Shown here piece after piece: positions 10,793 to 39,294 of a DNA stretch of 42,675 nucleotides. The DNA is from Methanobacteriota archaeon (lineage in GTDB: Archaea; Thermoplasmatota; Poseidoniia; Poseidoniales; Thalassarchaeaceae), in assembly GCA_002698225.1 (NCBI GenBank), contig NZWD01000034.1:11369-54043 (forward strand), in the 5' to 3' direction. Made by a program: the position numbers and the translations under genes. Numbering within the stretch: position 1 is the first letter of the stretch; each line of letters opens with the position of its first letter. The notes under the pieces are model-generated. The model was not told the DNA's origin, ran no database searches, and saw only the letters and a program-made list of their open reading frames with translations.

Positions 10793-13700
10793 ATGAGAAG
10801 CGTCGTCATCGCACTAGTCATGCTTGTTTTGTCTCCTTTCGGAGGGGTGGTTTCAGGTTCCTCAGAGCCGCCAGAGGAATTGCGAATCGATGGCGAAGAG
10901 ATAATGCCTAGCTACTCCAGAGCTGTACAATTGGCCTTCAATCGGGTGTCTGACCTAGATTCCTATTCAGATGAGGTGCTTGCACAGACTGATGATTGGT
11001 TGATTGTGACTAGAGTCTCGATTGACATGCACATGCTGACTAAAGCAAGACCTTCTTCTAGTGAGGCTGCACCGATTCTCTCGGGCGCTTACATATGGAC
11101 ATTTGAAGATTCATCAGAGGCAGTAAAAAGACTCGAAAGCTCCCTTAAAGCGGGCGAGATAGAATCATTCTCTCCGATGGTCGAGAAGCAGCAGCAGCCT
11201 AGACTGACTCCTAACGATACGGACTTCAGTTCACAATGGCATCTGAGTAACACTGGCCAGACCAGTGGAGGAGTTGCGGGTGAGGATGCTAATGTTACTA
11301 CGGCTTGGGATACATACACTGGATCCGGGGTCATCATCAGTGTCATTGATGATGGTCTAGATCACAACCACAGCGACATCAGCCCGCACTATTCTCCAGT
11401 CTACTCCTACGATTGGTGTGATGATGACAACGATCCTTCGCCCTCCAGTTGGAATGGTCATGGAACTGCTGTTGCAGGTGTGGCTGCGGCAGTCGGGGAT
11501 AACTCGCTGGATGTTACAGGGGTCGCGTTCGATGCAACGATAGCAGGATCTACCCTAATCGCCTGCTGGGCCGGGGATGCGACCGAGGCCGATGCGCTCA
11601 GCTACGAGAGTGACGACATAGATATCTACACCAACTCATGGGGCCCAGCTGACGATGGTCAGACCCTAGAGGCTCCCGGTCCACTTACTCTGGCTGCATT
11701 CGAGAATGATGCCTACAGCGGCCGTGATGGCCTAGGAAACCTGATTACATGGGCTGCTGGGAATGGGTTAGGCTCAGACGACAACTCAAACTATGACGGC
11801 TATGCAAATAGCCGCTTCACCATAGCTGTGACCGCAATCAGTCACAATGGTGAGCAGTCATACTATGCCGAACCTGGGGCCAACATACTCGTCGCAGCGC
11901 ACTCAAATGGTGATGGTGAGGGCATTACCACCACCGATATTACAGGCTCTGGTGGATACAACAGCGGCAATGTCACTCACTCCTTTGGAGGAACTTCGAG
12001 TGCGACCCCACTGGCCGCAGGAGTAATCGCTCTGATGCTCGAAGCCAATGAGAATCTGACTTGGAGAGATGTTCAACATGTCTTAGTGAATAGCGCTCGG
12101 ATGAACGATCCCAACGACACATCGTGGACGGTCAACGGGGGCGGCCACGATATATCCCACAAGTATGGATTCGGTGTCGTTGATGCCGGTGCCGCTGTCA
12201 CGGTAGCAGAGAACTGGTTCAATGTAGGAGAGGAGTTGAATGCGACATACGGCCCGTACTCGCCAGCCACCACCATAGAAGATGACTCTCCGGAGTGGAC
12301 AGAGTTCACCACTATGGTAACTGATGAGTTCTTGTTGGAGAGTGTTGATGTCGTCGTAGATATCAGCCATGATGCGAGAGGAGACTTGGATATTGTTCTA
12401 GTATCGCCCTCAGGAACTGAGTCTTGGCTAGCTGATACTCGCAACGACAATGGAAATGACTACTCCAACTGGATGTTCAATACTGTGCGGCACTGGGATG
12501 AGTCATCTCTGGGCACATGGACCCTGAAGGTCAGAGACACCGAAGTAGGAAACACTGGAACTCTGAACTCATGGGAGCTGATACTGCATGGGGTCGATAT
12601 CGACTACGATCACGATGATGATGGGCTGAGTGATGAAAACGAGACTCTAGTCTACGGCACGGACCCGTATGACTCGGATACCGACGATGATGGTTTGAGC
12701 GACTATGACGAAGTCATGGTCTACGGCACGGACCCACTACTAATCGACTCAGATTTAGATGGTCTGAGTGACTCCGCTGAGGTGACTACTACTGGAACCG
12801 ATCCGTTGGACTCGGATACCGACGACGACGGGCTCACCGATGGGGCGGAGATCAATTACTGGTCTAGTGACCCGTTAGTGTACGACCCGGATAACGATTC
12901 AGACCTGTTCTATCACTTCAACGACTGCAATGATAACGATCCGCTGGTCAATCCAGGACGGCCCGAACTACTGAATGGGATTGATGATAACTGTGACGAT
13001 TTCGTTGACGAAGGGTACAACTTCACAGATAGAGACAATGACGGCCTCAAGGACTGGAGCGAGTATCACATTCACGGAACAGATCATATGGACTCAGACA
13101 CCGATGATGATGGATTAGATGACGGAGAGGAAGTCAACATCTACTCGGCTATGGGTTCGAATCCACTGGTCTTCGACCCGGATAGTGACACAGACACTTG
13201 GTACTGGTTTGAGGACTGTGATGATGATGACCCAGATCGCTCACCGGGCCATATCGAGTTGTTGGACGATTTCGATAATGACTGCGACTTCCTTGTGGAT
13301 GAGGACTATTGGGATTTGGATTCGGACAATGATGGGCTCACAGACTACGATGAGTTTCACAACATCACCACTGATCACTTAGATGGCGATACTGACGACG
13401 ATGGACTCCCCGATGGTCTCGAGTACAACGAATATGCTGCCCTGGGGGCCGACCCATTAGTGCATGATGAAGACTCGGATAGCGATGGATGGTACTGGTT
13501 CCAGGATTGTGATGATGAGGACTTCGATCGGGCTCCGTTCAAGCCCGAGACATTGGATGGTAAGGACAATGACTGTGACGATGTGATTGACGAGGACTTC
13601 TTCTCGCTAGATAGCGACGGGGACGGTTTGACTGATTTCGACGAGTACCACAACCACACTACAAACCCAGAACTAGCAGATTCTGATAGCGATGGGATGT

Positions 13701-14548
13701 CTGATGGAGAGGAGGTCACAGTAACTGGATCAGATCCTAAGGCATTCAACTTCGATAGTGATGAGGACGGATTCTACGACTTCGAGGACTGCGATGATTC
13801 TGTAGCGACAATCAATCCAGACGGAACCGAGGCTTGGAACGGTAGGGATGACGACTGCAATGAACAGGTCGACGAGGGGCTGTCTCGCAAGAATCTAGTC
13901 TCCACCACTCCTGACTTCCGTGAGGTTCAGGATTGGGATGCTGTCAATGAATCACTGATTCTGAACATTGCCAATATTCCAGACTCCGTAGGTGCCACCT
14001 TGAGTTGGAACTTTGGCGACTACACGCTCACAGCGAATGTAAGCGAAGACGGTAAGAGCGTTGTAATACTCCCGATAGACTGCGAATCTGGCGATACCTC
14101 TCTGGAGGTTTATCTCTGCGGCCAAGGCGATAGCCCGCAACAAGCATCCCTCACCATCTCAGAATCCAGCGAGACAACACAGATTGTATGGGATATCGAT
14201 ATGGAGGTATGGATACCTCCGCCCAGTTTATCCGAGAGATTGCTCGACATCATCTTCTCTCCAACCGGCCTAGCAGCTACTCTGCTAGTAGTCGTGTCTC
14301 TCCTCGGCTTGGTTGTGCTTTCCATTCGCAGAGTCTCGCACAATCGGAGGCTAGAGGACGCATACAAGGCGTACGACATCAAGTCCGGCGAGTTTTCCAT
14401 GTCGCCAGAATTCCAGGACTATGAGTTGCCTTCGGCACCAGATCTCAGTTCTATGGTGGGACAGCAGGCAGCCCCAGTGCAACTACCTTCGATTCCGGCT
14501 AGTCCTGTCGATAGTGAGGCCATCCCTGAGGCTCCAGATCTCGATTAG
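10793..14548 (+). CDS. Kexin-type S8 serine protease with P domain and calcium-repeat stalk, membrane-anchored
   Basis: This is an exported subtilisin-fold protease of 1251 residues. From ATG 10793 it opens with a clear signal peptide (MRSVVIALVMLVLSPFGG), then a prodomain-like stretch. Numbered from a GTG six codons upstream (10775), the triad is Asp192 in VIDDGLDHNHSD, His229 in WNGHGTAVAG and Ser408 in FGGTSSATPLAAG, with oxyanion Asn330 in WAAGNG. NYDGYANSRFTIAV is the same block as in yeast Kex2 and furin, so it belongs to subfamily S8B. A proprotein-convertase P domain follows at about 505-608. Residues 610-1035 alternate thrombospondin-3-like DxDxDGLxD repeats with four Cys-containing MopE-like modules. 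One transmembrane helix at about 1163-1184 and a cytoplasmic tail end the protein. Secretion and calcium dependence are inferred from these parts. Confidence 0.93.
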   Translation: MRSVVIALVMLVLSPFGGVVSGSSEPPEELRIDGEEIMPSYSRAVQLAFNRVSDLDSYSDEVLAQTDDWLIVTRVSIDMHMLTKARPSSSEAAPILSGAYIWTFEDSSEAVKRLESSLKAGEIESFSPMVEKQQQPRLTPNDTDFSSQWHLSNTGQTSGGVAGEDANVTTAWDTYTGSGVIISVIDDGLDHNHSDISPHYSPVYSYDWCDDDNDPSPSSWNGHGTAVAGVAAAVGDNSLDVTGVAFDATIAGSTLIACWAGDATEADALSYESDDIDIYTNSWGPADDGQTLEAPGPLTLAAFENDAYSGRDGLGNLITWAAGNGLGSDDNSNYDGYANSRFTIAVTAISHNGEQSYYAEPGANILVAAHSNGDGEGITTTDITGSGGYNSGNVTHSFGGTSSATPLAAGVIALMLEANENLTWRDVQHVLVNSARMNDPNDTSWTVNGGGHDISHKYGFGVVDAGAAVTVAENWFNVGEELNATYGPYSPATTIEDDSPEWTEFTTMVTDEFLLESVDVVVDISHDARGDLDIVLVSPSGTESWLADTRNDNGNDYSNWMFNTVRHWDESSLGTWTLKVRDTEVGNTGTLNSWELILHGVDIDYDHDDDGLSDENETLVYGTDPYDSDTDDDGLSDYDEVMVYGTDPLLIDSDLDGLSDSAEVTTTGTDPLDSDTDDDGLTDGAEINYWSSDPLVYDPDNDSDLFYHFNDCNDNDPLVNPGRPELLNGIDDNCDDFVDEGYNFTDRDNDGLKDWSEYHIHGTDHMDSDTDDDGLDDGEEVNIYSAMGSNPLVFDPDSDTDTWYWFEDCDDDDPDRSPGHIELLDDFDNDCDFLVDEDYWDLDSDNDGLTDYDEFHNITTDHLDGDTDDDGLPDGLEYNEYAALGADPLVHDEDSDSDGWYWFQDCDDEDFDRAPFKPETLDGKDNDCDDVIDEDFFSLDSDGDGLTDFDEYHNHTTNPELADSDSDGMSDGEEVTVTGSDPKAFNFDSDEDGFYDFEDCDDSVATINPDGTEAWNGRDDDCNEQVDEGLSRKNLVSTTPDFREVQDWDAVNESLILNIANIPDSVGATLSWNFGDYTLTANVSEDGKSVVILPIDCESGDTSLEVYLCGQGDSPQQASLTISESSETTQIVWDIDMEVWIPPPSLSERLLDIIFSPTGLAATLLVVVSLLGLVVLSIRRVSHNRRLEDAYKAYDIKSGEFSMSPEFQDYELPSAPDLSSMVGQQAAPVQLPSIPASPVDSEAIPEAPDLD
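12605..13882 (+). repeat. Coding super-repeat: TSP3-like plus MopE-like modules
   Basis: Within the protease gene, four modules of the type DCxDxD...GxDxDCxxxVDE begin at about 12920, 13211, 13502 and 13784. They are spaced 291, 291 and 282 bases apart, that is 97, 97 and 94 codons. The gaps hold two to three DxDxDGLxD calcium-type loops each, and three more loops precede the first module. Phrases such as GACTCGGATACCGACGA recur at the DNA level, showing growth by duplication. This is protein architecture, not a CRISPR or satellite. Confidence 0.85.
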
Positions 14549-24382: not shown

Positions 24383-26875
24383 TCAGCCCTCTACTGTTGC
24401 TGACTCTTCCTCTTTTTCTTCCGAGGGGTCAACAGAGTCGCCGGACTCAACTTCGCCCTCGGTATCGTAGTAGTAGACCTCTGGCTCGTCGTAACCAGGA
24501 ATCTCCAACTCGACCATAGAAGTCAGGTCATCAGTCTTGTGAACAGAAGCCCCCGCTGCAGAGAAGGCATAGATGTAGTCGCCCATGAAAATAGATCTGC
24601 GGATGCTAGTCGAACCACTCCACCATCCTGATAGGCCGTCCTCATTGTAGAATTCTGAGTGGTTGACCATACCGTGAGTGGACAATGTGCCGTTCTCTGC
24701 ATCCACATCGATTAGTTCGAGAGTCGAAACGAACTCGTAGCCGGAGTAGGTGTAGGTCCTACCGTCAATCTCAACCTCATCGTATGTGTATCTGTAAGTC
24801 GAAAGTGGGATTGCCAGTAGTTGCTCGGGAGCCCAGTAGGTGAATGCCTTGTGCTCGTATGTCGCCTCAGAGTACGACCAAGACCAACCGCATCCCCACT
24901 CGTCACAACCCTCATCCTCGTAGGCTGGAGATAATTGTAATGAGTCGGCTAGGGTTGGGTTAGTCGGGTCACTCACATCGAAAAGGGAGACTTGAGTCAC
25001 CGACCAGTCCAGACCCAATCCATCTGGCCCGGGTCCGATTCCAATAGTAAGTAGCGTCTCAGAGTCTATTGGGTGAATGTAAGTGGAGACGCCTGGCACC
25101 TCCAACTCTCCAAGGATTATTGGGTCGGTAGGATCTGTGAGGTCGATTACCCAAAGGGGATCTATGTTCTGGAAGGTAACAAGGTATGCTCTGTCGCCGA
25201 CGAAGCGGGCGCTCCATATGCGCTCATCAGGGGCAATGTCGCCGACATGGCCGAGCTGAATTAATTCTGATGAGTCAACAGTGCATTCACTGACCGAGCA
25301 CATGGTTTCACCGGCATAGGTAAAGTAAGAAGTGCAGGTACAACTCTCCGAGACTCCTAGTGTGAACACATTGTTGGTCGGTCCAGTCCATTCATCGGTC
25401 CCTTCTAGCCACCAGCGTCCCCAGGCGTCCTCAGTAGTGGCTACACGGATCACTCCGTTGTACTCTGAGATGGAAAACTGGTCCTGAACTGTCCCCTCAA
25501 CTCGTCCTGATGCGACATAGGTGGTCTCGGAGGGGTCACTGATGTCGAAGACATGGATGTTGGTTGCATCGTCCCAGCCGAAGTTTCTCCAGAACCACCA
25601 CCAGTCGTTGGCTGGCTCTGCAAGTATCATCATATTCTGTGAAGCGTACACATGCGCCCATGAGGAAGTGATGTGGTCGAGTTGCATCTCGGACTCCTCA
25701 CCAAGCAACTCGATTGTCATTATCGTGCTGAATCCACGCCCTGCGCTGTCGGCGCTAGCAGAGAACTCACTGCAGTCTTCGGAGGTGGCAGGGTGCTGGA
25801 ACAGGCCGTCTTCTCCGACTTCGTACAAGTGCGGTGCGAAATCGTCCAGAGTCAGGTCGTCGATAATCGCCTGGTTTGCAGCGATGGTTTCCTCCATGCT
25901 CTGGTTCCAAATGGTCATCCTCTCCTCATCTGTATCTGCCTCCCAGTAGGTCTCTGGAAGGTAGACCCAGGTCCTGAGTCCATCGATGTGAGTCCACAGG
26001 TGGGTGACCGAGCGCATTGTGCCATCGACTAGTCGTGCAGTGTGATAGTTGCCCTCGATGTATAGTTCGCGTTCGACCTCAGGAGCAGTCCTGTCAGTTA
26101 TGTCCACGACGGTGTACTTCACCAAGTTCTGAACACGGGTGTAGGTGTAGGAGTACTCATCTTCGCCAGGGTAGCTGACCGTGACCTCTTCGGACATGAG
26201 TTCCCTGAGAGGATCGTCATGAGGTAGGCTCCAGTAGTAGATAGATGATGCTACGACCAGCCTGTCGCCCTCCAGCATCATCTGCATCGGATACCCCTGA
26301 ATGCTGATGTTGGACTCAAGTGTGAGATTACCAAATTCGGGAACTCCCATGATTACCAGAAGGTTGCCATTCAGCATGTAGATGTGATATCCATCTGTCT
26401 TCAGGAAGTCGGCCTCGTCGACGCCTTCCTCCTGGTTGTTAGTACCGGAGAACTCGCCCTCACGACCAGAGTCGCTGTTGGCTGTTCCACCGGTATTACT
26501 CCCAGATTCATCTGCAGCGCCTTCCGGAGCTCCATCCATCATCGCCACATCGTCTTCAATGAAGGCACCACCACCGCGCCAGACCGGTCCGGCCCAGTGC
26601 CAGTACGACTGCTGGTCGAGCGAAACTAGCATCTCGTTGTAGATTGAGTCTTGCATATCTGCCAGCAGGATGCCACACTCATCATATGTCTCCAGTACAG
26701 GAGAAGTTCTCTCGCGGTCAGGGAGATCAAGATGAGGGTATTCGCTGTCGAGCCAATCAAGAACTGAGTCAACAATCTCATCGTCAATGTCAACTATGTC
26801 ATCTACTGCTCCCAGACATCCTGAGGTCAGTAGCATCATCAGTGCCAGTATTGCAGCCTTGGGGCTTGCGTCCAT
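24383..26875 (-). CDS. Secreted beta-propeller lipoprotein (COG4880-like)
   Basis: This 830-residue exported protein belongs, by recognition, to the family of secreted proteins with a C-terminal beta-propeller distantly related to WD40. From ATG 26875 the N-terminus AAILALMMLLTSGCLG is a signal peptide with a lipobox, so Cys20 would be lipid-modified and hold the protein on the membrane. The family signature FSGTNNQEEGVDEADFLKTDG begins the propeller, followed by repeats such as VVDITDRTAPEVERELYIEG, HVFDISDPSETTYVASGRVE, WVIDLTDPTDPIILGELEV and SLFDVSDPTNPTLADSL, each a blade with a DxxDP turn. Two Cys clusters (SCTCTSYF and EGCDEWGCGW) suggest disulfides or metal binding. The frame is open to a TTG at 26905. 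The function of the family is not known. Confidence 0.88.
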   Translation of the reverse strand: MDASPKAAILALMMLLTSGCLGAVDDIVDIDDEIVDSVLDWLDSEYPHLDLPDRERTSPVLETYDECGILLADMQDSIYNEMLVSLDQQSYWHWAGPVWRGGGAFIEDDVAMMDGAPEGAADESGSNTGGTANSDSGREGEFSGTNNQEEGVDEADFLKTDGYHIYMLNGNLLVIMGVPEFGNLTLESNISIQGYPMQMMLEGDRLVVASSIYYWSLPHDDPLRELMSEEVTVSYPGEDEYSYTYTRVQNLVKYTVVDITDRTAPEVERELYIEGNYHTARLVDGTMRSVTHLWTHIDGLRTWVYLPETYWEADTDEERMTIWNQSMEETIAANQAIIDDLTLDDFAPHLYEVGEDGLFQHPATSEDCSEFSASADSAGRGFSTIMTIELLGEESEMQLDHITSSWAHVYASQNMMILAEPANDWWWFWRNFGWDDATNIHVFDISDPSETTYVASGRVEGTVQDQFSISEYNGVIRVATTEDAWGRWWLEGTDEWTGPTNNVFTLGVSESCTCTSYFTYAGETMCSVSECTVDSSELIQLGHVGDIAPDERIWSARFVGDRAYLVTFQNIDPLWVIDLTDPTDPIILGELEVPGVSTYIHPIDSETLLTIGIGPGPDGLGLDWSVTQVSLFDVSDPTNPTLADSLQLSPAYEDEGCDEWGCGWSWSYSEATYEHKAFTYWAPEQLLAIPLSTYRYTYDEVEIDGRTYTYSGYEFVSTLELIDVDAENGTLSTHGMVNHSEFYNEDGLSGWWSGSTSIRRSIFMGDYIYAFSAAGASVHKTDDLTSMVELEIPGYDEPEVYYYDTEGEVESGDSVDPSEEKEEESATVEG

Positions 26876-26933
26876 GGTAATGGGGAATGGCCTGATGGAT
26901 ATCAAGCGGTTGGTTCATTGATTTGACACAATA

Positions 26934-27197: not shown

Positions 27198-30100
27198 TCA
27201 TGGCAGATTTTGGTCGTCGAACTCCTCATCCAACTCCCTCGGATCGAAGCCTGACCACGACTCAATCATGTCGAGGTCTTTCGTAATCTGCCTCCTGCGA
27301 GTTCCGACATATGCGATTCCAGCCATTATCAAGATAGTTAGTACTACAATGAGGAATGGTAATCCGCTTCCCAGTAGCCAATCCAGCATGTTCGTATCGT
27401 CAGGCGACTCTACCTGAACTATCTCAACGAGTCCAGGACTGACTACATCTCCATCCAGCGCCCAGACCTCTACTCTAGCATTCGAGCCAGAAAGTGTCCA
27501 GATAGACAGGTAGGTCCAGATGCCATCTCCCGCGAACTGATCTCCCTCAGAACCATCATCGCGGAACTCAAGGGCCTGAGAAATACCTGACGAGCGTAAC
27601 TCGCCGCTCACAGATGAAGTGGTTCCGTCTGGATCGACAAGTCTGACGGTAATCAGTACCGGCGTAGGGTCGTCTACCTCGAATAACAGTGGGTTGACCT
27701 CAAGCTCGTACAACTGAGGTGAGCTGGAGCCAATTGTGAGATTAATCGATGCAGAGGATGTCGCCCCCCTGGAGTCCTTCACTAGCAGGTCAACACGGAC
27801 AGGGCCTGGTGGGAATGTGGCGGTGTAGACTTGCTTGTCGCTCAGTAGGGTACCATCTCCGAGGCTCCACTGGTAAAGCACTATGTCGCCATCGTAGTCA
27901 TAGGAAGACGATGCGTCAAGCACTACGGGCTCCCCAGGAGGGACATACTGTCCCTCGGAGAGTCCGGCAATGCCGGCAACGGGTCCAGTCTCGAGAACAG
28001 TCAAAGTCTGCGAATGGACACGTTGCATTCCAGTTGAGTCGGTGAGCTCGAAACGCAGAGTGTGCTCGCCTGCGGGAAGATAGTCATTGTACCAGTAGGC
28101 GGTGTCTCTGTCCTCAAGAATTGGTTCTAACATGATGTCAGAGAAGACGCTGACTGTGAAGTTGTCACCGTCCGGGTCGAACGAGCGTCGGAAGTCGAAC
28201 AGTACTGGGAGGTTAGAGTAGACTTCGATGTCCGGCATCGGTGAGTCGAGGATTAGGACAGGCGCGGCTTCATCCACTCTGACCATTATCTCATACATGT
28301 CGGATAAACCGGAGCCGTCTTCGACGGTCAGCGTTACCCGATGGACGCCCTCAGGCAGCCTTGTCTCCAGAGTCCAACCACTTCCCATCGGCTCGCTTAA
28401 CTTGTCGCTTTCCCACAGAACACTGACTAGGTCTGTGCTCTGATCTGTGTATGGGTTGCATACTAATCCACTGCCGTTGTCAGGTAAATCGACACAGGCT
28501 GTGTCCCAGTCACCCGAGCCCGTAGCATCGAACATCAGCAGTTCGCCGGAATCGGTCAGAATCCCATCTGAAGGATTTGCGATGATTGCTACTGGGGGCG
28601 AGTTGGTCACCGTCAATTCCTCACTGACCGTGCTCCACATATTCGCATGGTTTGCCAAATCATCACTAGCGTGCATTGTAATCAGGTGGTTGCCCTTCGA
28701 CAGAGTTCCCTCCCAGATTAATTCGGAGTTAGGCGTCACTCCGGAAGCCAACAGGCCGTCCCTGTCACTCCAGAACTCGAAACGTACCTCATCTCCCTCA
28801 GGATCGAAGGTCTCAGCCCCGTCCAATCGAATGATATCAGAGGACATCTGGCCACTCCGAATGACCTGCATGCTAGCCTCAGGAATTTCGTTGAACAGTT
28901 CGACATTGAAAGTCCATGAGACGGGTACATTGACGCCATCAGAGGCATAGACGGTGACAGAGAACTGATTGGGTGCACCGGGGAATGAGGTGATTATCGT
29001 ATCAGGGCACTCTGGGTCGCCGGCAGGAGGCTGTCCGGCGCCTCCTCCATACGAGGTCTCTACCCAACAAGCCAGCTCATCTCCCTCGGGGTCGTAGGTG
29101 TTGGCCAGATGTATCGTGACATTGGCCGTGATTCCCAAGTAAAGCGTGCCCCATGAGGAGATTCCCGGAGTGGTACCGACCGAAAGCACTGGAGGGAGAT
29201 TGACCAATTCCACCTCTCTTGTCTCCTGCACGCAGTGATTCTGAGTGTCGCATATCTCGAGGGTGATCTGATGAACTCCATCAGATAGGCAGGTCGTGGG
29301 GCCAGAGTTCGCTTCAAAGATTGAGCCATTTCCGCTGAGCGGTCCACAGGCGACTAAGAGATCTCCGTCCACATTGCTGGTCCACGAGTAAGTCAATCCA
29401 TCCATATCGAGGTCCCAGGACCGAGAGGCGTCGAAGGAGACGATGCTTCCACTCGCGAAGGTGTCCTCATTGGAAGGTGAGTCCCAGAGGATGAACGGGG
29501 GCTGGTTCTGCAGCTCTAGACGACAATAGACTGTGAGGTCTGAGCTGAGCTCGGCGGAAGCGGTGTCGTTGTGCACTCCATCGTAATCACAACCAGTGTA
29601 CACGAGGTTGGTTTCGGACCAACCCTGCATCGGGGTCCAACGCTCTCCGATGAAAGAGCCGTATGATGCCATTCCAGAGTAAGGTAGGGTGGCGGTATGT
29701 TCTGACTCATACAGGTCGAATGTCATGTTGATCTCGGCGTGTGGGATGTGGAGAAGGTGCTGGTTGACCGCATGCACCTCGACCATCCACATCACATCGA
29801 CGATATTGTCGGATCCGGTGAAAATCGGTGTCCCGAAATCGGAGGATGAGACCCATCTGAGATGGCTATTTCCTAGCATCTCAAATGTGTCGGATGAGCC
29901 AAATGAGAACCATGAGTCGGTGAAGTTGGCGAAACTGTCCGACATCGAGGCAGGTGCACTAGGGTCGCAGTCGAGAGCGATATTGTATGACAGCAACTCG
30001 GTTTGGTCTACTAGATTCAGACATGATGCCGAGTTGCCCACAATGAAGCTGTTCTCTAGATACGAGGTAACCTGTCCGTCGGCATCCCAGAGCATGCCTC

Positions 30101-31850
30101 CATTATCGCCGCTCAGATCTACTCCTCTGACGAATCCGTCTACTTCATCCAGTTCGATGGCATGGGTGCTGGAGTTGGTCACCACCCTCAGGTCATCGAT
30201 GATCACTGTTCCATGGTGATCCATCCCGGTGTTGTCGATATCCAATGCAGGGCCGCTAACCGGATCTCTAATCTCGGTTGAAAGTAACTGCAGGTCTATG
30301 CTGTCACGGGCCACTATGCCATGCTGGTCTTGAATCGAGGTGCATTCGAAGCAGGTGACATTCTTGCCACCGCTCATCACATCATTGGACTCGTCGAAGT
30401 AGATACCCGCACCGAGTTCGGGCAGGGGGGAGCCGAGTCCGTTCTGATAGGTTGAGACATACGAGAGGTCGACATTACTGGAGTCCCTGACAGATACTCC
30501 ATGTCCAGCATTTCCGATGCTCAGTACTCCTGAGAGATCAGGGTGGAACTCACGTAAATCGACTCCAGTTGCCCCATTGTCAGTAATCACCCAGTCGGCT
30601 CCCTGCGCCCCACCCTTCCACAATAGAACACCGGGGCCAGTCGAATTGCTGACCACTAGGTCGTTAATCGTCGGAGCCCAATTTGCACTGCGCATGAACA
30701 ACCCTGCTCTGTCATTAATAGGAGCTGCCGGACTTGTTCTGCCGTTGCGGTGGAGTTCAATTCCATTGAGGATGGTAGAGGGGCCAATCATGTATGCCTT
30801 GAATCCTACAGCGGCGTTGTCCTCAATCAGCGCATCGGTTACTCTAACTCCGCTGGTGTTGATTTCAAAAGCAGCGTACGCAAGCCCTGGAGTCTTAGCG
30901 CCCGGGCCCCCTGTCCCCCTCAATTCTAAGTTAATGAAGATAGCATTGTGAGGGACATTTGAGAACTGGCTATGATTGTACTGTTCAACCATAACACCGC
31001 GGTACTGGCTATCTTCGACTGTGAGGTCAACGAAGTTGGGTCGCGTAGTCCAGCCAGATGTGATATGGCGTACGAAGATACCGTTGTCGCAACGAGTCAC
31101 GGTCGAGTCTGAAATCAAAGGAATGGAGTCTTCGACCCAGATTCCTGCAGCGATGGCAAGCGTCGCGCCTGAGACATTGGAGATTTGCAGGTTCGAGACT
31201 AGTCCGCCCGAGTTGCCCCAATAGTTCACTGCCCTGGTAATAAGTCCGTCAGCAATCATGCCATTGACTATTGGGGCTGAATAGGCACCGACTGAGAGGC
31301 CTATGCCGTATCTCCAAGAAGTTGAGATTCCATGCAGATCCTGACCGCCTCCATCGATTACCAAGTCGTTGATTCTAGGCGAGGCCCCGTCAAAGAGATC
31401 GACTGCTACCCTATCTGCATTGACTACTCTGAGATCGTTGAGAGTGGGGTCGCTATCGTAAATCGTCACACCCCATTCAGCATCAGTGATTGTGAGGTTT
31501 TCGATTTTCGAACCTAAGCCGCTGCTGCTTGAGTTGAAAACTATGCCATCATGGTTCCCGATAATGGATTCCAGTAGGACCGGGTCGGACGATGTACCTT
31601 GGACTGTAAGTCTACCCGCAACTAGGATTGTCTCGTCATCACCCAGCAGGATTGTGGTACCTGACTGGACTATGAGGACCTCTCCGCTCTCTACGGTGTA
31701 GCCCTCCTGCAGGGTCACGGTTCCCGACCATATGGTCGTCGAGCGCACGCCTGTACTCGCTGCTCCTATGGCCAGCGGAGCATAGGAAGTGAGCAATAGA
31801 GCGACTATGGCAATGGTAGCCCTTCTACGGGTGTCCAGCCTTCCATGCAT
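27198..31850 (-). CDS. Giant surface protein: right-handed beta-helix plus PKD/Ig-like domains
   Basis: This exported protein has 1550 residues. The signal peptide is RRRATIAIVALLLTSYAPLAIG. Residues of about 40-700 are a parallel beta-helix of short turns (LTVQGTSSDPVLLESI, HGIVARDSIDLQLLSTEI and many like them), the fold used by polysaccharide lyases and adhesins. Four to five PKD or Ig-like domains follow at about 790-1400, with repeated FDASRSWDLDMDGLTYSW, LDGAETFDPEGDEVRFEFW and LDASSSYDYDGDIVLYQWS motifs. A last strand-rich domain precedes the transmembrane helix at about 1497-1517, then the basic TRRRQITK and an acidic tail. No catalytic residues could be picked out, so carbohydrate binding or cleavage and adhesion are both possible. 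It is divergent from the RAM-domain pair. Confidence 0.9.
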   Translation of the reverse strand: MHGRLDTRRRATIAIVALLLTSYAPLAIGAASTGVRSTTIWSGTVTLQEGYTVESGEVLIVQSGTTILLGDDETILVAGRLTVQGTSSDPVLLESIIGNHDGIVFNSSSSGLGSKIENLTITDAEWGVTIYDSDPTLNDLRVVNADRVAVDLFDGASPRINDLVIDGGGQDLHGISTSWRYGIGLSVGAYSAPIVNGMIADGLITRAVNYWGNSGGLVSNLQISNVSGATLAIAAGIWVEDSIPLISDSTVTRCDNGIFVRHITSGWTTRPNFVDLTVEDSQYRGVMVEQYNHSQFSNVPHNAIFINLELRGTGGPGAKTPGLAYAAFEINTSGVRVTDALIEDNAAVGFKAYMIGPSTILNGIELHRNGRTSPAAPINDRAGLFMRSANWAPTINDLVVSNSTGPGVLLWKGGAQGADWVITDNGATGVDLREFHPDLSGVLSIGNAGHGVSVRDSSNVDLSYVSTYQNGLGSPLPELGAGIYFDESNDVMSGGKNVTCFECTSIQDQHGIVARDSIDLQLLSTEIRDPVSGPALDIDNTGMDHHGTVIIDDLRVVTNSSTHAIELDEVDGFVRGVDLSGDNGGMLWDADGQVTSYLENSFIVGNSASCLNLVDQTELLSYNIALDCDPSAPASMSDSFANFTDSWFSFGSSDTFEMLGNSHLRWVSSSDFGTPIFTGSDNIVDVMWMVEVHAVNQHLLHIPHAEINMTFDLYESEHTATLPYSGMASYGSFIGERWTPMQGWSETNLVYTGCDYDGVHNDTASAELSSDLTVYCRLELQNQPPFILWDSPSNEDTFASGSIVSFDASRSWDLDMDGLTYSWTSNVDGDLLVACGPLSGNGSIFEANSGPTTCLSDGVHQITLEICDTQNHCVQETREVELVNLPPVLSVGTTPGISSWGTLYLGITANVTIHLANTYDPEGDELACWVETSYGGGAGQPPAGDPECPDTIITSFPGAPNQFSVTVYASDGVNVPVSWTFNVELFNEIPEASMQVIRSGQMSSDIIRLDGAETFDPEGDEVRFEFWSDRDGLLASGVTPNSELIWEGTLSKGNHLITMHASDDLANHANMWSTVSEELTVTNSPPVAIIANPSDGILTDSGELLMFDATGSGDWDTACVDLPDNGSGLVCNPYTDQSTDLVSVLWESDKLSEPMGSGWTLETRLPEGVHRVTLTVEDGSGLSDMYEIMVRVDEAAPVLILDSPMPDIEVYSNLPVLFDFRRSFDPDGDNFTVSVFSDIMLEPILEDRDTAYWYNDYLPAGEHTLRFELTDSTGMQRVHSQTLTVLETGPVAGIAGLSEGQYVPPGEPVVLDASSSYDYDGDIVLYQWSLGDGTLLSDKQVYTATFPPGPVRVDLLVKDSRGATSSASINLTIGSSSPQLYELEVNPLLFEVDDPTPVLITVRLVDPDGTTSSVSGELRSSGISQALEFRDDGSEGDQFAGDGIWTYLSIWTLSGSNARVEVWALDGDVVSPGLVEIVQVESPDDTNMLDWLLGSGLPFLIVVLTILIMAGIAYVGTRRRQITKDLDMIESWSGFDPRELDEEFDDQNLP

Positions 31851-34645: not shown

Positions 34646-36373
34646 ATGGCACTCAAACAGGATAGTCTTGAGATGCCTCGTAAGCCCGGAGTCTATCTTT
34701 TCCGTCGATCTGATGATAGAGTCATGTATGTGGGCAAGGCGACGGATTTGCGGTCGCGAGTCAGGTCCTACTTCGTCGCCACTCCCGACCGAGAGATGAT
34801 CCCCCTGCTAGTCAGAGACTCCGACCGCATTGACTTCATCGTGACAAAGAGTCCCAGCGATGCTCTGATTCTCGAGAGGCAGTTAATCCGGGAGCATAAG
34901 CCACGCTACAACTCGATGTTGAAGGACGATAAATCGTATCCATTCATTGCTTTGACCGAGCACGATTATCCTAGGATTGTATACACTCGTCACCCGCCTG
35001 AAGGGTCTCGCAGTTGGGGTCCGTTCTCAGATGCGAGAGCAGCAAAGAAAGTGATACAACTTCTTCGCAGACATTTTGGAATCAGAGATTGCCCTGAACT
35101 GCTACCGCAGGGGTGCTTAGCCATGCACATTGGGTTATGTCACGCTCCTTGCATCGAGCCAGCAGGATATGACAAACAGGTGTCTGCCGCTATGAGTGTC
35201 CTAGACGGCGATGCGACTAGGCTGATTGAATCGCTTCAGGATGAAATGGATGAGGCTTCAAGGAGGCTCGATTACGAGAGCGCGGCCAAAACAAGGGATC
35301 TGATTGGTTCGGTTCAGAGCACTATCTCCCAGCAGGTTGTGCACAGCAGGTTCTACCAAGACTGTGATGCCGTAGGTTTCGCATCTAGTGGAGATATTGG
35401 GGTGGTGGTGATACTGAACGCCAAGGAGGGAATTGTTCAGGGACAGTTGGAGTATCCTCTGCTGCATCGTGGAGATATCTCGGACTCAGTCTCATGCGTA
35501 CTTGCAGAGCACTATGCCAGTACAAAGCCTCCTCGTAGAGTACTGGTACCTTCACCAGTTGGAGATTCGCTGCGCTCATGGCTGTCTGAGCGTCGAGGCG
35601 GGGCTGTGGAAGTGCGGATTCCGAAGCGCGGGGAGTTAGCCCGCCTCCGGAGGATGGCTGACCAGAACGCCGAGGCACAGGTCATTAGACACCACAAGAA
35701 TCGTTTCGGCAGCCTCGAGCAGGCCGCAGCAAACGATGCGGCGAAGCTGCTTGGCTTCGATTCGCTGGACCATGTGGTATGCTTCGACATGGCACAATTA
35801 CAAGGGAACGAGAGGGTGGGTGCATCTGTGGTTCTGCGCAACGGCAGGCCATCGAAAGAGGAGTATCGGACCTATCGTATCAGGAGTGAGGCTACTGATG
35901 ATCTTCGGATGATGAGTGAGGTGATCGAGCGTTGGCTTAAGCATCAGGATGGGTGGCCTGATCTGCTTCTTCTCGATGGTGGTAGCACTCATCTGTCTAC
36001 GATTCATAACATGCTCGACTCACATGGGCTACGGGGCCGGTTCCCAGTTGCCGCCCTGGCCAAGAGAGAGGAGACTCTGCACATCGAAGGAAAGTCACCT
36101 CTGGTCTTGGAAAGGAAGGGGAGAGTCCTGATTCATGCGCGTGACGAGGCTCATCGATTCGTAAACAGGTTCCATCGAAATAGGAGAGGCAGGGGGGCGT
36201 TGAGTGATCCTCTAGAGGAGATTGAAGGGATTGGAGCGAAGAAGATCCAAGCGCTGCTGAGACACTTTGGAGGCAGACGCGGAATCGAACATGCTAGCAT
36301 TAGGGAATTACGAGAAGTCCCGGGCATAGGCAAGTCGATGGCTGAGCGAATCCAACAACACCTGAACGGTTAG
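34646..36373 (+). CDS. uvrC: Excinuclease ABC subunit C
   Basis: UvrC makes both cuts in bacterial-type nucleotide excision repair. The GIY-YIG nuclease is at the start (KPGVYLFRR, then VMYVGKATDLRSRVRSYF). The cysteine cluster DCPELLPQGCLAMHIGLCHAPC fits the family's conserved metal or Fe-S site. A UVR motif (EMDEASRRLDYESAAKTRD) for UvrB contact follows, then an RNase H-like domain with CFDMAQLQGNERVGAS and LLLDGG, and two helix-hairpin-helix motifs end the protein. ATG 34646 gives 575 residues and a usual N-terminus; the frame also holds ATGs at 34616 and 34592, which would overlap the divergent ATPase gene. UvrA and UvrB are not in the window. The stop shares TTAG with the convergent gene. 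Confidence 0.95.
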   Translation: MALKQDSLEMPRKPGVYLFRRSDDRVMYVGKATDLRSRVRSYFVATPDREMIPLLVRDSDRIDFIVTKSPSDALILERQLIREHKPRYNSMLKDDKSYPFIALTEHDYPRIVYTRHPPEGSRSWGPFSDARAAKKVIQLLRRHFGIRDCPELLPQGCLAMHIGLCHAPCIEPAGYDKQVSAAMSVLDGDATRLIESLQDEMDEASRRLDYESAAKTRDLIGSVQSTISQQVVHSRFYQDCDAVGFASSGDIGVVVILNAKEGIVQGQLEYPLLHRGDISDSVSCVLAEHYASTKPPRRVLVPSPVGDSLRSWLSERRGGAVEVRIPKRGELARLRRMADQNAEAQVIRHHKNRFGSLEQAAANDAAKLLGFDSLDHVVCFDMAQLQGNERVGASVVLRNGRPSKEEYRTYRIRSEATDDLRMMSEVIERWLKHQDGWPDLLLLDGGSTHLSTIHNMLDSHGLRGRFPVAALAKREETLHIEGKSPLVLERKGRVLIHARDEAHRFVNRFHRNRRGRGALSDPLEEIEGIGAKKIQALLRHFGGRRGIEHASIRELREVPGIGKSMAERIQQHLNG

Positions 36374-39294
36374 TCTTCGAAGAATGACTCATCGACTACG
36401 GTGGTTCCGTCCTCGAGTTTACCGAACTCAGACTCCATCGCTAACTCTGTCAGTTTCTGCTCTTCGGCCGAAGACTCCTCCTGCTTCTTCTCTTCATGCT
36501 CCCTCTTCCGCCTCCTCCTTCTGCTAATCAGTAGCCCTAAGCCGAATAAGAGGATGAAGATGTAAGGGGCCAACTCACCGATAATGAATATCCAACTCAC
36601 CTCTAAAGAATACGATAAGATGTCATAATTCTCTCTACACTGCGTCCAAGTCGTGGCATCCGGGCATACCGGGGTTCTGTATACCACAACCTGTCTACCG
36701 TCCTGCTCCAGCAGCTCCCCTAATCCTTCTCTGCTCTCAAAACTGAGCAGCCTGACCGAAGAGGGGAGGTGAATCTCCATCCTTGCTGAAGAACGGATGG
36801 TTCCGAATACAGTGTGCTCCATCAGCGGAGTCACCTCAAGGAAGAACTCGAGCCCATCAACATGAACTCCTGAAGAGTTCATCACCGGATATCCAAAAGC
36901 AGCCAGCATCTGTCTTGAAATGCTGAGTCCTATCGAAGCTGGCTGGGCAGCTATGGAAATCTCTTCTCCACGCAGTTTGGCGCTCACCACGGTGCTCTCG
37001 ACCTCAAAGCCGAGTCGCATCGGAACCGTATCGCCAGCCTCGGAATTCGTAGGCATGGTGACTGTGTCGAATACGGCTATCAGCGGAGTATCATCGAAGG
37101 CTGCCACTATGCTATAGGGACCCATGCCGAAGTCTTGGACAGTCTCTATACCTCCGAATGATTCGATAATCTCCCCTGACCGTATTGTCAGTTCATCTCC
37201 TATGTCCTGTAGTCCTTGATTGGAAATCTCAAGCATAATCGGTTCTCCTACGCCGAGGTCAATAGGAGCCTCAAGGTCTGAGCCGGCAAGTAGGCCTCCG
37301 TCTATCCTGTCGCCGATTACAATCCCCCTCCTGAGTAAATCAGAGGGTACTGGACTCAATTCTACGCCTTCCTCGTCCAATTCTATACCCAGTCGGTAGA
37401 TTTCCAACACGACTTCGGCTGAGAATTCGACTTCGGCTGAGAATGAAGTCTCCCTGATTGCAAATTTTTCTATGTCTACTACAATGTCGAAGGAGATACA
37501 GGTCAACTGATTGGATCCACAGATGAGGTCCGGGCTGTCATCTTCACAGGGGTCGGAATCTATGCAAATGGGGTGCCTCCAGTCGAATGATCGAGTTCCC
37601 TTGAATGCGAAGTCCTGCTCTCCACCTGAAGATGATGCAGTAATCTCAACCTTTGTCGAATCTCCTAGAGTTGACTCTATCCATTCAGGCAGATGCAGAG
37701 TCAGTGTCAACTCAGTCCTCGGCATGCCCTCAGGTAGAAGGTCATGTAGCCACGAGGTGTCTGCCTGCATCTCCACCTCAATTACACTCATCAGTGAAGC
37801 TAAATCTTCATCAGTAACTTTCGATAGATCTATGCTAGCGATTTCGCCACCTGTGTTCTCAAGGATGCGCTCTACTACTGATGCGACCCTCATCGAAGTG
37901 GATTGGGAACTCGTCGTGAGTATTACCGGCCAATCTCCACTCATTGCGTTCTCACCTTCTATGCAGTAGCGCACCTGGAATGATTCGTCGCAGGTCTCGC
38001 CGGGAGAGTGTTGGAAGTCGAGTCCTCCCTCCTCATCGGCATCTGAGAATTGTGGTGTATCGAACCAGATTTCGGCCCCTAGAGCCTCAGAGAAAGCTGA
38101 GGACATGTCTTCAATCGGGATTCCTTGAAGTAATGCAGAAAGGTCCTCATTGACTTCTTGATTGAGCAGTCTGATACCGTCGGATGATATCCAGGGAATC
38201 TCGATTGTTCCGTCGTGCAGGTTGGCATCCCAGTCGCTCAGAGTGTCTGAGTCGAGGTGGTGGATGGCAATCTGCAACTCAAACTGAGAATTCTGTGGGT
38301 CAGAGGCATCAACCTCGAGGTTGATTCTGAGTGAAGGATCTTGCTGATCGAAAGAGTAGGTTGGGGTTGTTGTAGGTCTGTGAGCCAGTTTGGATTGCAA
38401 CTCTACAGATTCGATAGCTGCCTCGGTTACTACCTGCGTGTTGTCCACTGTTACTATCGAGTAAGTCTGAGGGTGTCCGTCGAGCGTTCTGCTCATAATC
38501 GATCCAGGTTCCTCAACGCTCTCCGTATTCGCATAACCGGGTGGCATTACCGAGAGTTCCAGCCAGTGCCCCATAGGTGACGTGGCATTGAACTGCGAGT
38601 TCAGCGAGGCCCCCATCGTGAGCATTCCCTGCATCATTCGATTGATATCGGAGGTTTGCGGCTTGAGACCGAAGGAAGAGGTATCGACTTGCATCTGAAG
38701 CACGGCCTGGAAGCAGATTGGAGGATGGAACGGATTGTTCTCGTATCCGTTGACCTCGTCTATTGAGTCGTAATCGGAATCGTACACGCACTGAGCGTCC
38801 GGCTGAGACTTGAAATCTACCTCCGAGACCGTGGTTATGGCCGTAGTGTTAACATTCGGGAAGTTGATGTCAATGAACTCCTCCATAATCTGCTCGACTC
38901 GCTCAAGCATCAGGTCGGAAACCAATTTTCCCCCTCCCCTAGACAGTGACTCGTAATTCCTGATGTAATCTGCTGGAATCCCGTCCCATGGAGCGCTGTC
39001 GCCTTCTAGGTCAAGATCACCGAGTTCTAGGTCCTCCCTTGACATCTCATGCACCGCTAGACCAACGCGCATCTCCACCATCTCGGCGTCGGCCACATCT
39101 ATCTCTACTGAGCTTGCAATCCACTCCGAACCGGGTGATTGGTCGAGTGTCGAATCGTAGTCATCACAGATGCCATCAGCACTATTCCATGTAGAGCAGA
39201 TATCGTTGGTGACATCGGGCTGTCCGGGAGGAGGATCTGCGACTGCGAGAGGAGTGAAGAGCAGTAAAACCAGCAGCACGGCAACTCGCTGCAT
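36370..39294 (-). CDS. Large type I membrane protein of unknown function
   Basis: This 974-residue exported protein is not one I recognise. The signal peptide is RVAVLLVLLLFTPLAVA. A Cys-containing segment (DICSTWNSADGICDDYD) comes next, then a long strand-rich ectodomain with several further Cys pairs, for example ICIDSDPCEDDSPDLICGS, that could form disulfides. One transmembrane helix lies at about 901-924, followed by RRRRRKREH and an acidic 40-residue tail. An internal EFSAEV duplication comes from an 18-bp tandem repeat. The plan matches that of the beta-helix protein, without recognisable domains. It is divergent from taw2 by 60 bases. Cell-surface location is inferred; a structural or binding role is only a guess. 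Confidence 0.85.
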   Translation of the reverse strand: MQRVAVLLVLLLFTPLAVADPPPGQPDVTNDICSTWNSADGICDDYDSTLDQSPGSEWIASSVEIDVADAEMVEMRVGLAVHEMSREDLELGDLDLEGDSAPWDGIPADYIRNYESLSRGGGKLVSDLMLERVEQIMEEFIDINFPNVNTTAITTVSEVDFKSQPDAQCVYDSDYDSIDEVNGYENNPFHPPICFQAVLQMQVDTSSFGLKPQTSDINRMMQGMLTMGASLNSQFNATSPMGHWLELSVMPPGYANTESVEEPGSIMSRTLDGHPQTYSIVTVDNTQVVTEAAIESVELQSKLAHRPTTTPTYSFDQQDPSLRINLEVDASDPQNSQFELQIAIHHLDSDTLSDWDANLHDGTIEIPWISSDGIRLLNQEVNEDLSALLQGIPIEDMSSAFSEALGAEIWFDTPQFSDADEEGGLDFQHSPGETCDESFQVRYCIEGENAMSGDWPVILTTSSQSTSMRVASVVERILENTGGEIASIDLSKVTDEDLASLMSVIEVEMQADTSWLHDLLPEGMPRTELTLTLHLPEWIESTLGDSTKVEITASSSGGEQDFAFKGTRSFDWRHPICIDSDPCEDDSPDLICGSNQLTCISFDIVVDIEKFAIRETSFSAEVEFSAEVVLEIYRLGIELDEEGVELSPVPSDLLRRGIVIGDRIDGGLLAGSDLEAPIDLGVGEPIMLEISNQGLQDIGDELTIRSGEIIESFGGIETVQDFGMGPYSIVAAFDDTPLIAVFDTVTMPTNSEAGDTVPMRLGFEVESTVVSAKLRGEEISIAAQPASIGLSISRQMLAAFGYPVMNSSGVHVDGLEFFLEVTPLMEHTVFGTIRSSARMEIHLPSSVRLLSFESREGLGELLEQDGRQVVVYRTPVCPDATTWTQCRENYDILSYSLEVSWIFIIGELAPYIFILLFGLGLLISRRRRRKREHEEKKQEESSAEEQKLTELAMESEFGKLEDGTTVVDESFFED
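37411..37444 (-). repeat. 18-bp tandem duplication in the 974-residue surface protein
   Basis: GACTTCGGCTGAGAAT occurs at 37411-37426 and again at 37429-37444, an 18-base period with 16 identical bases per copy. On the coding strand it yields FSAEVEFSAEV. The near-identity suggests a recent in-frame slippage event. Confidence 0.85.

Follow-up and report, generated by a model that had tools for sequence, protein, structure and literature searches.

The window, that is, the whole stretch of 42,675 nucleotides analysed here, belongs to Marine Group II (Poseidoniales, Thalassarchaeaceae), a group of marine archaea that is very common, so its host had rightly been taken for an archaeon in an earlier note on this DNA. 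An uninterrupted open reading frame (ORF) lies at 10793-14548 on the plus strand, with a start at GTG 10775 or ATG 10793 and a stop at 14548; residues are counted from ATG 10793. The product of 1251 amino acids consists of a signal peptide, a prodomain, an S8 domain, a P domain, a stalk, an Ig-like domain, a transmembrane helix and a cytosolic tail (Table 1). Four Pfam families exceeded their gathering scores, the curated Pfam cut-offs: Peptidase_S8 (PF00082, residues 177-461, 5e-46), P_proprotein (PF01483, residues 515-597, 1.6e-26) directly after the catalytic domain, Cu-binding_MopE (PF11617, four stretches, 2e-22) and TSP3_bac (PF18884, six stretches, 2e-16). The flanking genes, an HMGL-like synthase upstream and an AstE/AspA-type hydrolase downstream, have been conserved across Thalassarchaeaceae, and this neighbourhood was discarded as a functional clue because it points to no link in function. 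Elsewhere in the window, three large proteins with an N-terminal hydrophobic segment are encoded on the minus strand, namely a beta-propeller protein (24383-26905), a 1550-residue beta-helix/PKD protein with a terminal helix (27198-31850) and a 974-residue protein without a Pfam match (36370-39294).

Table 1. Features of the protease gene, in window coordinates
Feature	Coordinates	Strand	Basis
Signal peptide / N-terminal hydrophobic segment, residues ~1-22	10793..10858	+	Hydrophobicity near residue 4; cleavage point approximate
Prodomain, residues ~23-137, ending at R137 (proposed self-cleavage P1)	10859..11203	+	Predicted fold; R/K at end in relatives
S8B catalytic domain: D186, H223, N324, S402; S1 D287 and D335; S2 D187; S4 E265 and E293	11204..12226	+	PF00082, furin sequence match, residue mapping, Foldseek
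P domain, residues 515-601	12335..12595	+	PF01483
Stalk, residues 602-1035: ten TSP3-like loops and four MopE-type Cys motifs	12596..13897	+	PF18884, PF11617, shuffles, model
MopE motif 1, C712/C734	12923..12994	+	Pfam and Cys spacing
MopE motif 2, C809/C831	13214..13285	+	Pfam and Cys spacing
MopE motif 3, C906/C928	13505..13576	+	Pfam and Cys spacing
MopE motif 4, C1000/C1022	13787..13858	+	Pfam and Cys spacing
Ig-like beta domain adjoining the membrane, C1097 and C1109	13898..14206	+	Model strands; Foldseek Ig matches ~1e-5
Transmembrane helix, hydrophobic core ~1158-1178, positive residues C-terminal	14246..14320	+	Hydropathy 2.79 at residue 1160
Cytosolic tail, P[SA]AP[DE][LF]: PSAPDLS, plus PEAPDLD at the end	14321..14545	+	Motif scan of relatives' tails

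The triad D186, H223 and S402 and the oxyanion residue N324 aligned with D153, H194, S368 and N295 of furin, and the block NYDGYANSRFTIAV was present in the ORF product. When the sequence was searched against the PDB, furin (4e-91, over residues 140-601) and kexin (1e-82) were the best matches, the next chain was mirolase at 1.5e-24, and other subtilases did not surpass it. Foldseek aligned the predicted head with furin at an E-value of 3e-44 and a TM of 0.81-0.84 of the target; TM was 0.81-0.82 for kexin and 0.60 for Aeromonas ASP. The model of the catalytic domain contains patches of low confidence, and the mean pLDDT of the whole model was 74. Sequence and model comparison thus support the assignment of the catalytic head to S8B (kexin/furin), closer to furin and kexin than to other subtilases.

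We determined the conservation of the substrate pocket by aligning 67 archaeal relatives onto human furin numbering. The catalytic and pocket residues D153, H194, N295, S368, D258, D306 and D154 were kept in 66-67 of the 67 relatives, and the same was true of D115, D162, N208, D301, E331, D174 and D179, which include the main calcium ligands. The exceptions were single gaps or oddities, fitting one broken copy (L063). This copy (L063/L087 in genome G006) is broken up over three ORFs that lie in different frames, which could reflect a misassembly or decay of the gene. Both S1 acids (D258 and D306) are therefore retained, and at S4 E236 was kept in 59/67 (88%) and D264 was replaced by Glu in most. 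At S2, D154 is kept and D191 is not, its place being taken by Asn, Trp, Tyr or Phe, and the furin disulfide cysteines are absent. The loss of D191 and the absence of these cysteines make strict dibasic specificity unlikely; by analogy with known furin structures, a basic P1 residue would be expected and a strictly required second basic residue would not. Covariation of the residue at furin D191 with the residue before the cut site was also considered, and Tyr occurred with Lys in 8 of 8 cases; these copies are apparently close relatives, and no general rule was derived.

Earlier surveys of Marine Group II name mainly S08A or plain S8 among the extracellular peptidases (PMC6864105, PMC4660358), as would suit an ordinary S8A subtilase that carries a P domain by chance; with furin and kexin E-values better than those of any other PDB subtilase by tens of orders of magnitude, a match to the furin fold and conservation of the S8B pocket and calcium residues, such an origin of the head is highly improbable. 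The proposal made from the letters alone, an S8B triad followed by a P domain, is thus borne out, and profile searches did not place the catalytic domain outside S8B.

Residues ~23-137 were predicted, with a pLDDT of about 90, to form a beta-alpha-beta-beta-alpha-beta fold with extra N-terminal helices. This is the order of strands and helices in S8 prodomains, and the resemblance lies in that predicted order only, as the prodomain sequence gave no Pfam or PDB match. At the end of the prodomain, five residues before the Asp aligned with furin D115, every one of the 67 archaeal relatives has a basic residue (Arg in 48 and Lys in 19), and the preceding residue is Pro in 40 of them and basic in only 19%. 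This Arg or Lys is the position at which self-cleavage would be expected, and a single basic residue there agrees with a retained S1 and a weakened S2 pocket lacking D191. The folded prodomain with its invariant basic end goes beyond what the earlier note had observed.

Between the P domain and the membrane, the note had described four Cys-containing MopE-like modules alternating with calcium-type loops, and both Pfam and our counts agree with it: the Cys pairs recur with a period of 97, 97 and 94 residues and an exact spacing of 22 within the pair. Ten DxDxDx[L]xDxxE loops were found in residues 601-1036, whereas 2000 shuffles gave 0.03 on average and never more than 1. The modules fold as repeats in the stalk model (mean pLDDT 90), whose pTM of 0.48 means that their relative placing, and so the rod shape, is not well fixed. 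The calcium-stiffened spacer put forward in the note, and its disulfide or metal site at the two Cys of each module, are accordingly putative roles. A PDB sequence search with the stalk returned short or low-complexity matches only, and Foldseek returned mainly Ig domains (~1e-5), fitting the C-terminal part of the model. The Ig-like domain between stalk and membrane, in which two Cys are kept in most Poseidoniales copies, was not part of the earlier description. Within the source genome, MopE motifs were found in no other protein; we read the motif name as putative metal-binding, and the protein is not classed as a copper protein.

The paucity of Lys and Arg in the stalk was considered as a shield against self-cleavage and rejected. 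A comparison set of 19 "other" Marine Group II TSP3 stalks, three of which may be fragments of the same protease family, was just as poor (mean 1.4% against 1.7%, Mann-Whitney p = 0.83), and a depletion common to such stalks carries no information on self-protection. In a Thalassarchaeaceae subclade (L017, L018, L021, L022, L025, L026), two to six extra one-Cys repeats of 20 residues follow the P domain, ahead of the TSP3 loops. Other Marine Group II proteins (L133, L134, L136, L159) have very long TSP3 stalks with 21-22 loops, 34% Asp and 12 Cys, and no sign of a furin-type head.

A single hydrophobic helix near residues 1160-1178, in accordance with the one transmembrane helix proposed before, leads into RR and then ~75 residues of tail. 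The motif P[SA]AP[DE][LF] was found in 44 of the 59 readable tails of relatives versus 2 of 351 neighbouring ORFs, the scan being made with the slightly looser pattern AP[DENS][LFI]. None of 46 other Marine Group II ORFs with a C-terminal helix and tail had it, the four matches listed being fragments of the same protease family. The motif occurs twice in the window protein and is kept in both Poseidoniales families. The conserved PSAPDL motif in the cytosolic tail is a new observation, being outside the earlier note and not found in the literature consulted.

We surveyed 194 genomes of the order Poseidoniales, scored by a strong P-domain match, with four unmatched genomes absent from the table. 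Such a match was found in about 85 of 98-102 Thalassarchaeaceae and 64 of about 92-96 Poseidoniaceae genomes, and because the genomes are ~80% complete, presence in Thalassarchaeaceae is close to universal. Genus g13 mostly had no strong match and none of the listed genomes of g16, g19 and g21 had one. The gene is thus widespread in the order with clade-specific losses, and its absence or near absence in several Poseidoniaceae genera indicates that it is not essential for the order. The arrangement of parts is common to nearly all complete relatives, which have three to five MopE motifs and the terminal helix. In the sampled rest of the phylum, strong matches were confined to genomes of family f3 of the same class, which from their kinship would be Marine Group III. 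A P-domain match was also seen in the control archaeon Methanosarcina acetivorans. In bacteria the core is sporadic: around Roseibacillus it was present in 3 of 115 genomes, and around a gammaproteobacterium in 7 of 143, the starting genome included in each.

The combination of parts had been put forward in the note as one not described for an archaeal enzyme. A 2008 survey of prokaryotes lists the subtilisin and P-domain combination for bacteria and not for archaea (PMC2605481), and a description of the Marine Group II S08B protein itself was found neither in PMC5069720 nor elsewhere in the open literature consulted. The combination is not a single case, the gene being widespread in the order, and S08B has already been counted in Marine Group II metatranscriptomes, with a share of 10.7-14.8% of the reads in a survey of Red Sea peptidases (PMC5069720).

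From the domain order, family, conserved pocket, basic prodomain end, tail motif and distribution, as established by computation, we infer that the protein is probably a type I membrane, cell-surface, self-activating, calcium-dependent S8B endoprotease that cuts after Arg or Lys and is held off the cell by its stalk. The signal peptide would export the protein, and the prodomain would help folding until the enzyme itself cuts it off after R137, with the P domain completing the catalytic unit. The calcium loops, Cys motifs and Ig-like domain would hold the head away from the membrane, in which the single helix would anchor the protein, and the PSAPDL motif of the tail would probably bind a cytosolic partner. 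The head would then perform limited proteolysis at the cell surface. There is close to an even chance that its substrates are the cell's own surface or secreted proteins; captured external protein is a tentative prediction that deserves serious weight.

On the latter side stands a nutritional role, in which the tethered protease would act as a trypsin-like first cutter of external protein and feed peptide transporters with no specific substrate. Marine Group II is described as proteolytic and its S8 enzymes as extracellular protein degraders (PMC6864105, PMC6461757), and the abundance of the S08B transcripts and the patchy loss of the gene, suiting a dispensable nutritional gene, point the same way. 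However, the source genome has six other S8 genes, of which furin matches one alone and weakly (L005, 2.5e-12), so that general degraders are already present and there is room for a specialised role; the retained S1 acids, Asp154 and, mostly, Glu236 point to restricted cutting, and the presence of a conserved cytosolic motif would be difficult to account for in a purely digestive protease. We regard the nutritional role as plausible, if somewhat doubtful.

TSP3 stalks are common in Marine Group II surface proteins, and a part in adhesion has been ascribed to thrombospondin genes of Poseidoniales (PMC6461757), so the protein could also be adhesin-like or structural, with a protease head that only trims or releases neighbouring stalk proteins as a sheddase. 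This is improbable, as essentially all relatives have an intact set of catalytic residues, MopE motifs were found in this protein only within the source genome, and Arg and Lys are nearly lacking from TSP3 stalks, which would be the closest candidates for targets. The most far-reaching form of the tethered-endoprotease reading is a true surface proprotein convertase of planktonic Poseidoniia, self-activating, wired to the cytosol by PSAPDL, maturing defined surface or secreted proteins at Arg/Lys and built in the Kex2/furin order, and perhaps also closer by descent to the eukaryotic enzymes than the bacterial ones are (AU p = 0.145 in the test described below); we consider it unlikely in this complete form.

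That this one widespread Poseidoniales enzyme is a tethered protease of the furin type, its basic S1 pocket intact, alters the expectation of which bonds are cleaved and of where the products would go. In addition, genes annotated as "thrombospondin" in these genomes may in some cases encode the stalks of enzymes of this kind and not adhesins.

Furin and Kex2 have the order signal, prodomain, protease, P domain, spacer, one helix and cytosolic tail, and the archaeal protein shares it, providing an archaeal case that bears on convertase evolution. The likeness extends to the S8 and P domains, the triad and oxyanion Asn, S1 D258/D306, S2 D154, S4 E236 in most copies, the calcium ligands and the fold. 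In contrast, the archaeal protein is without the S2 Asp191 and the furin disulfides, has a TSP3/MopE/Ig spacer instead of Ser/Thr-rich or Cys-rich regions, ends its prodomain with a single basic residue and not a multibasic site, and is predicted at the cell surface, whereas furin and Kex2 reside in the Golgi.

Among bacterial enzymes, Aeromonas sobria ASP (PDB 3hjr) also combines S8 and P domains, but it is secreted and its sequence match is only 1e-23. Verrucomicrobia (Roseibacillus, Luteolibacter) have the same two domains with up to 49% identity to the archaeal core, and the copies L066 and L068 have Lys at the prodomain end. In six bacterial relatives checked, neither a TSP3/MopE stalk nor a terminal helix of strong hydrophobicity was present, and two of these proteins stop at the P domain or shortly beyond it. 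A tree placing furin beside the archaea had weak support and a long branch, and a grouping of archaea with Verrucomicrobia was not rejected (AU p = 0.145); we make no claim from it. The Marine Group III copies L162 and L163 resemble the Marine Group II protein in the S8B and P domains, TSP3 loops, C-terminal helix and Arg at the prodomain end, but have no MopE motif, a tail of only a few residues and, in our reading of the sequence, a LamG-like domain inside the stalk. Since Marine Group III has a TSP3 stalk without MopE, tethering by a stalk looks older than the split of the two groups, and MopE motifs and tail look like Marine Group II additions.
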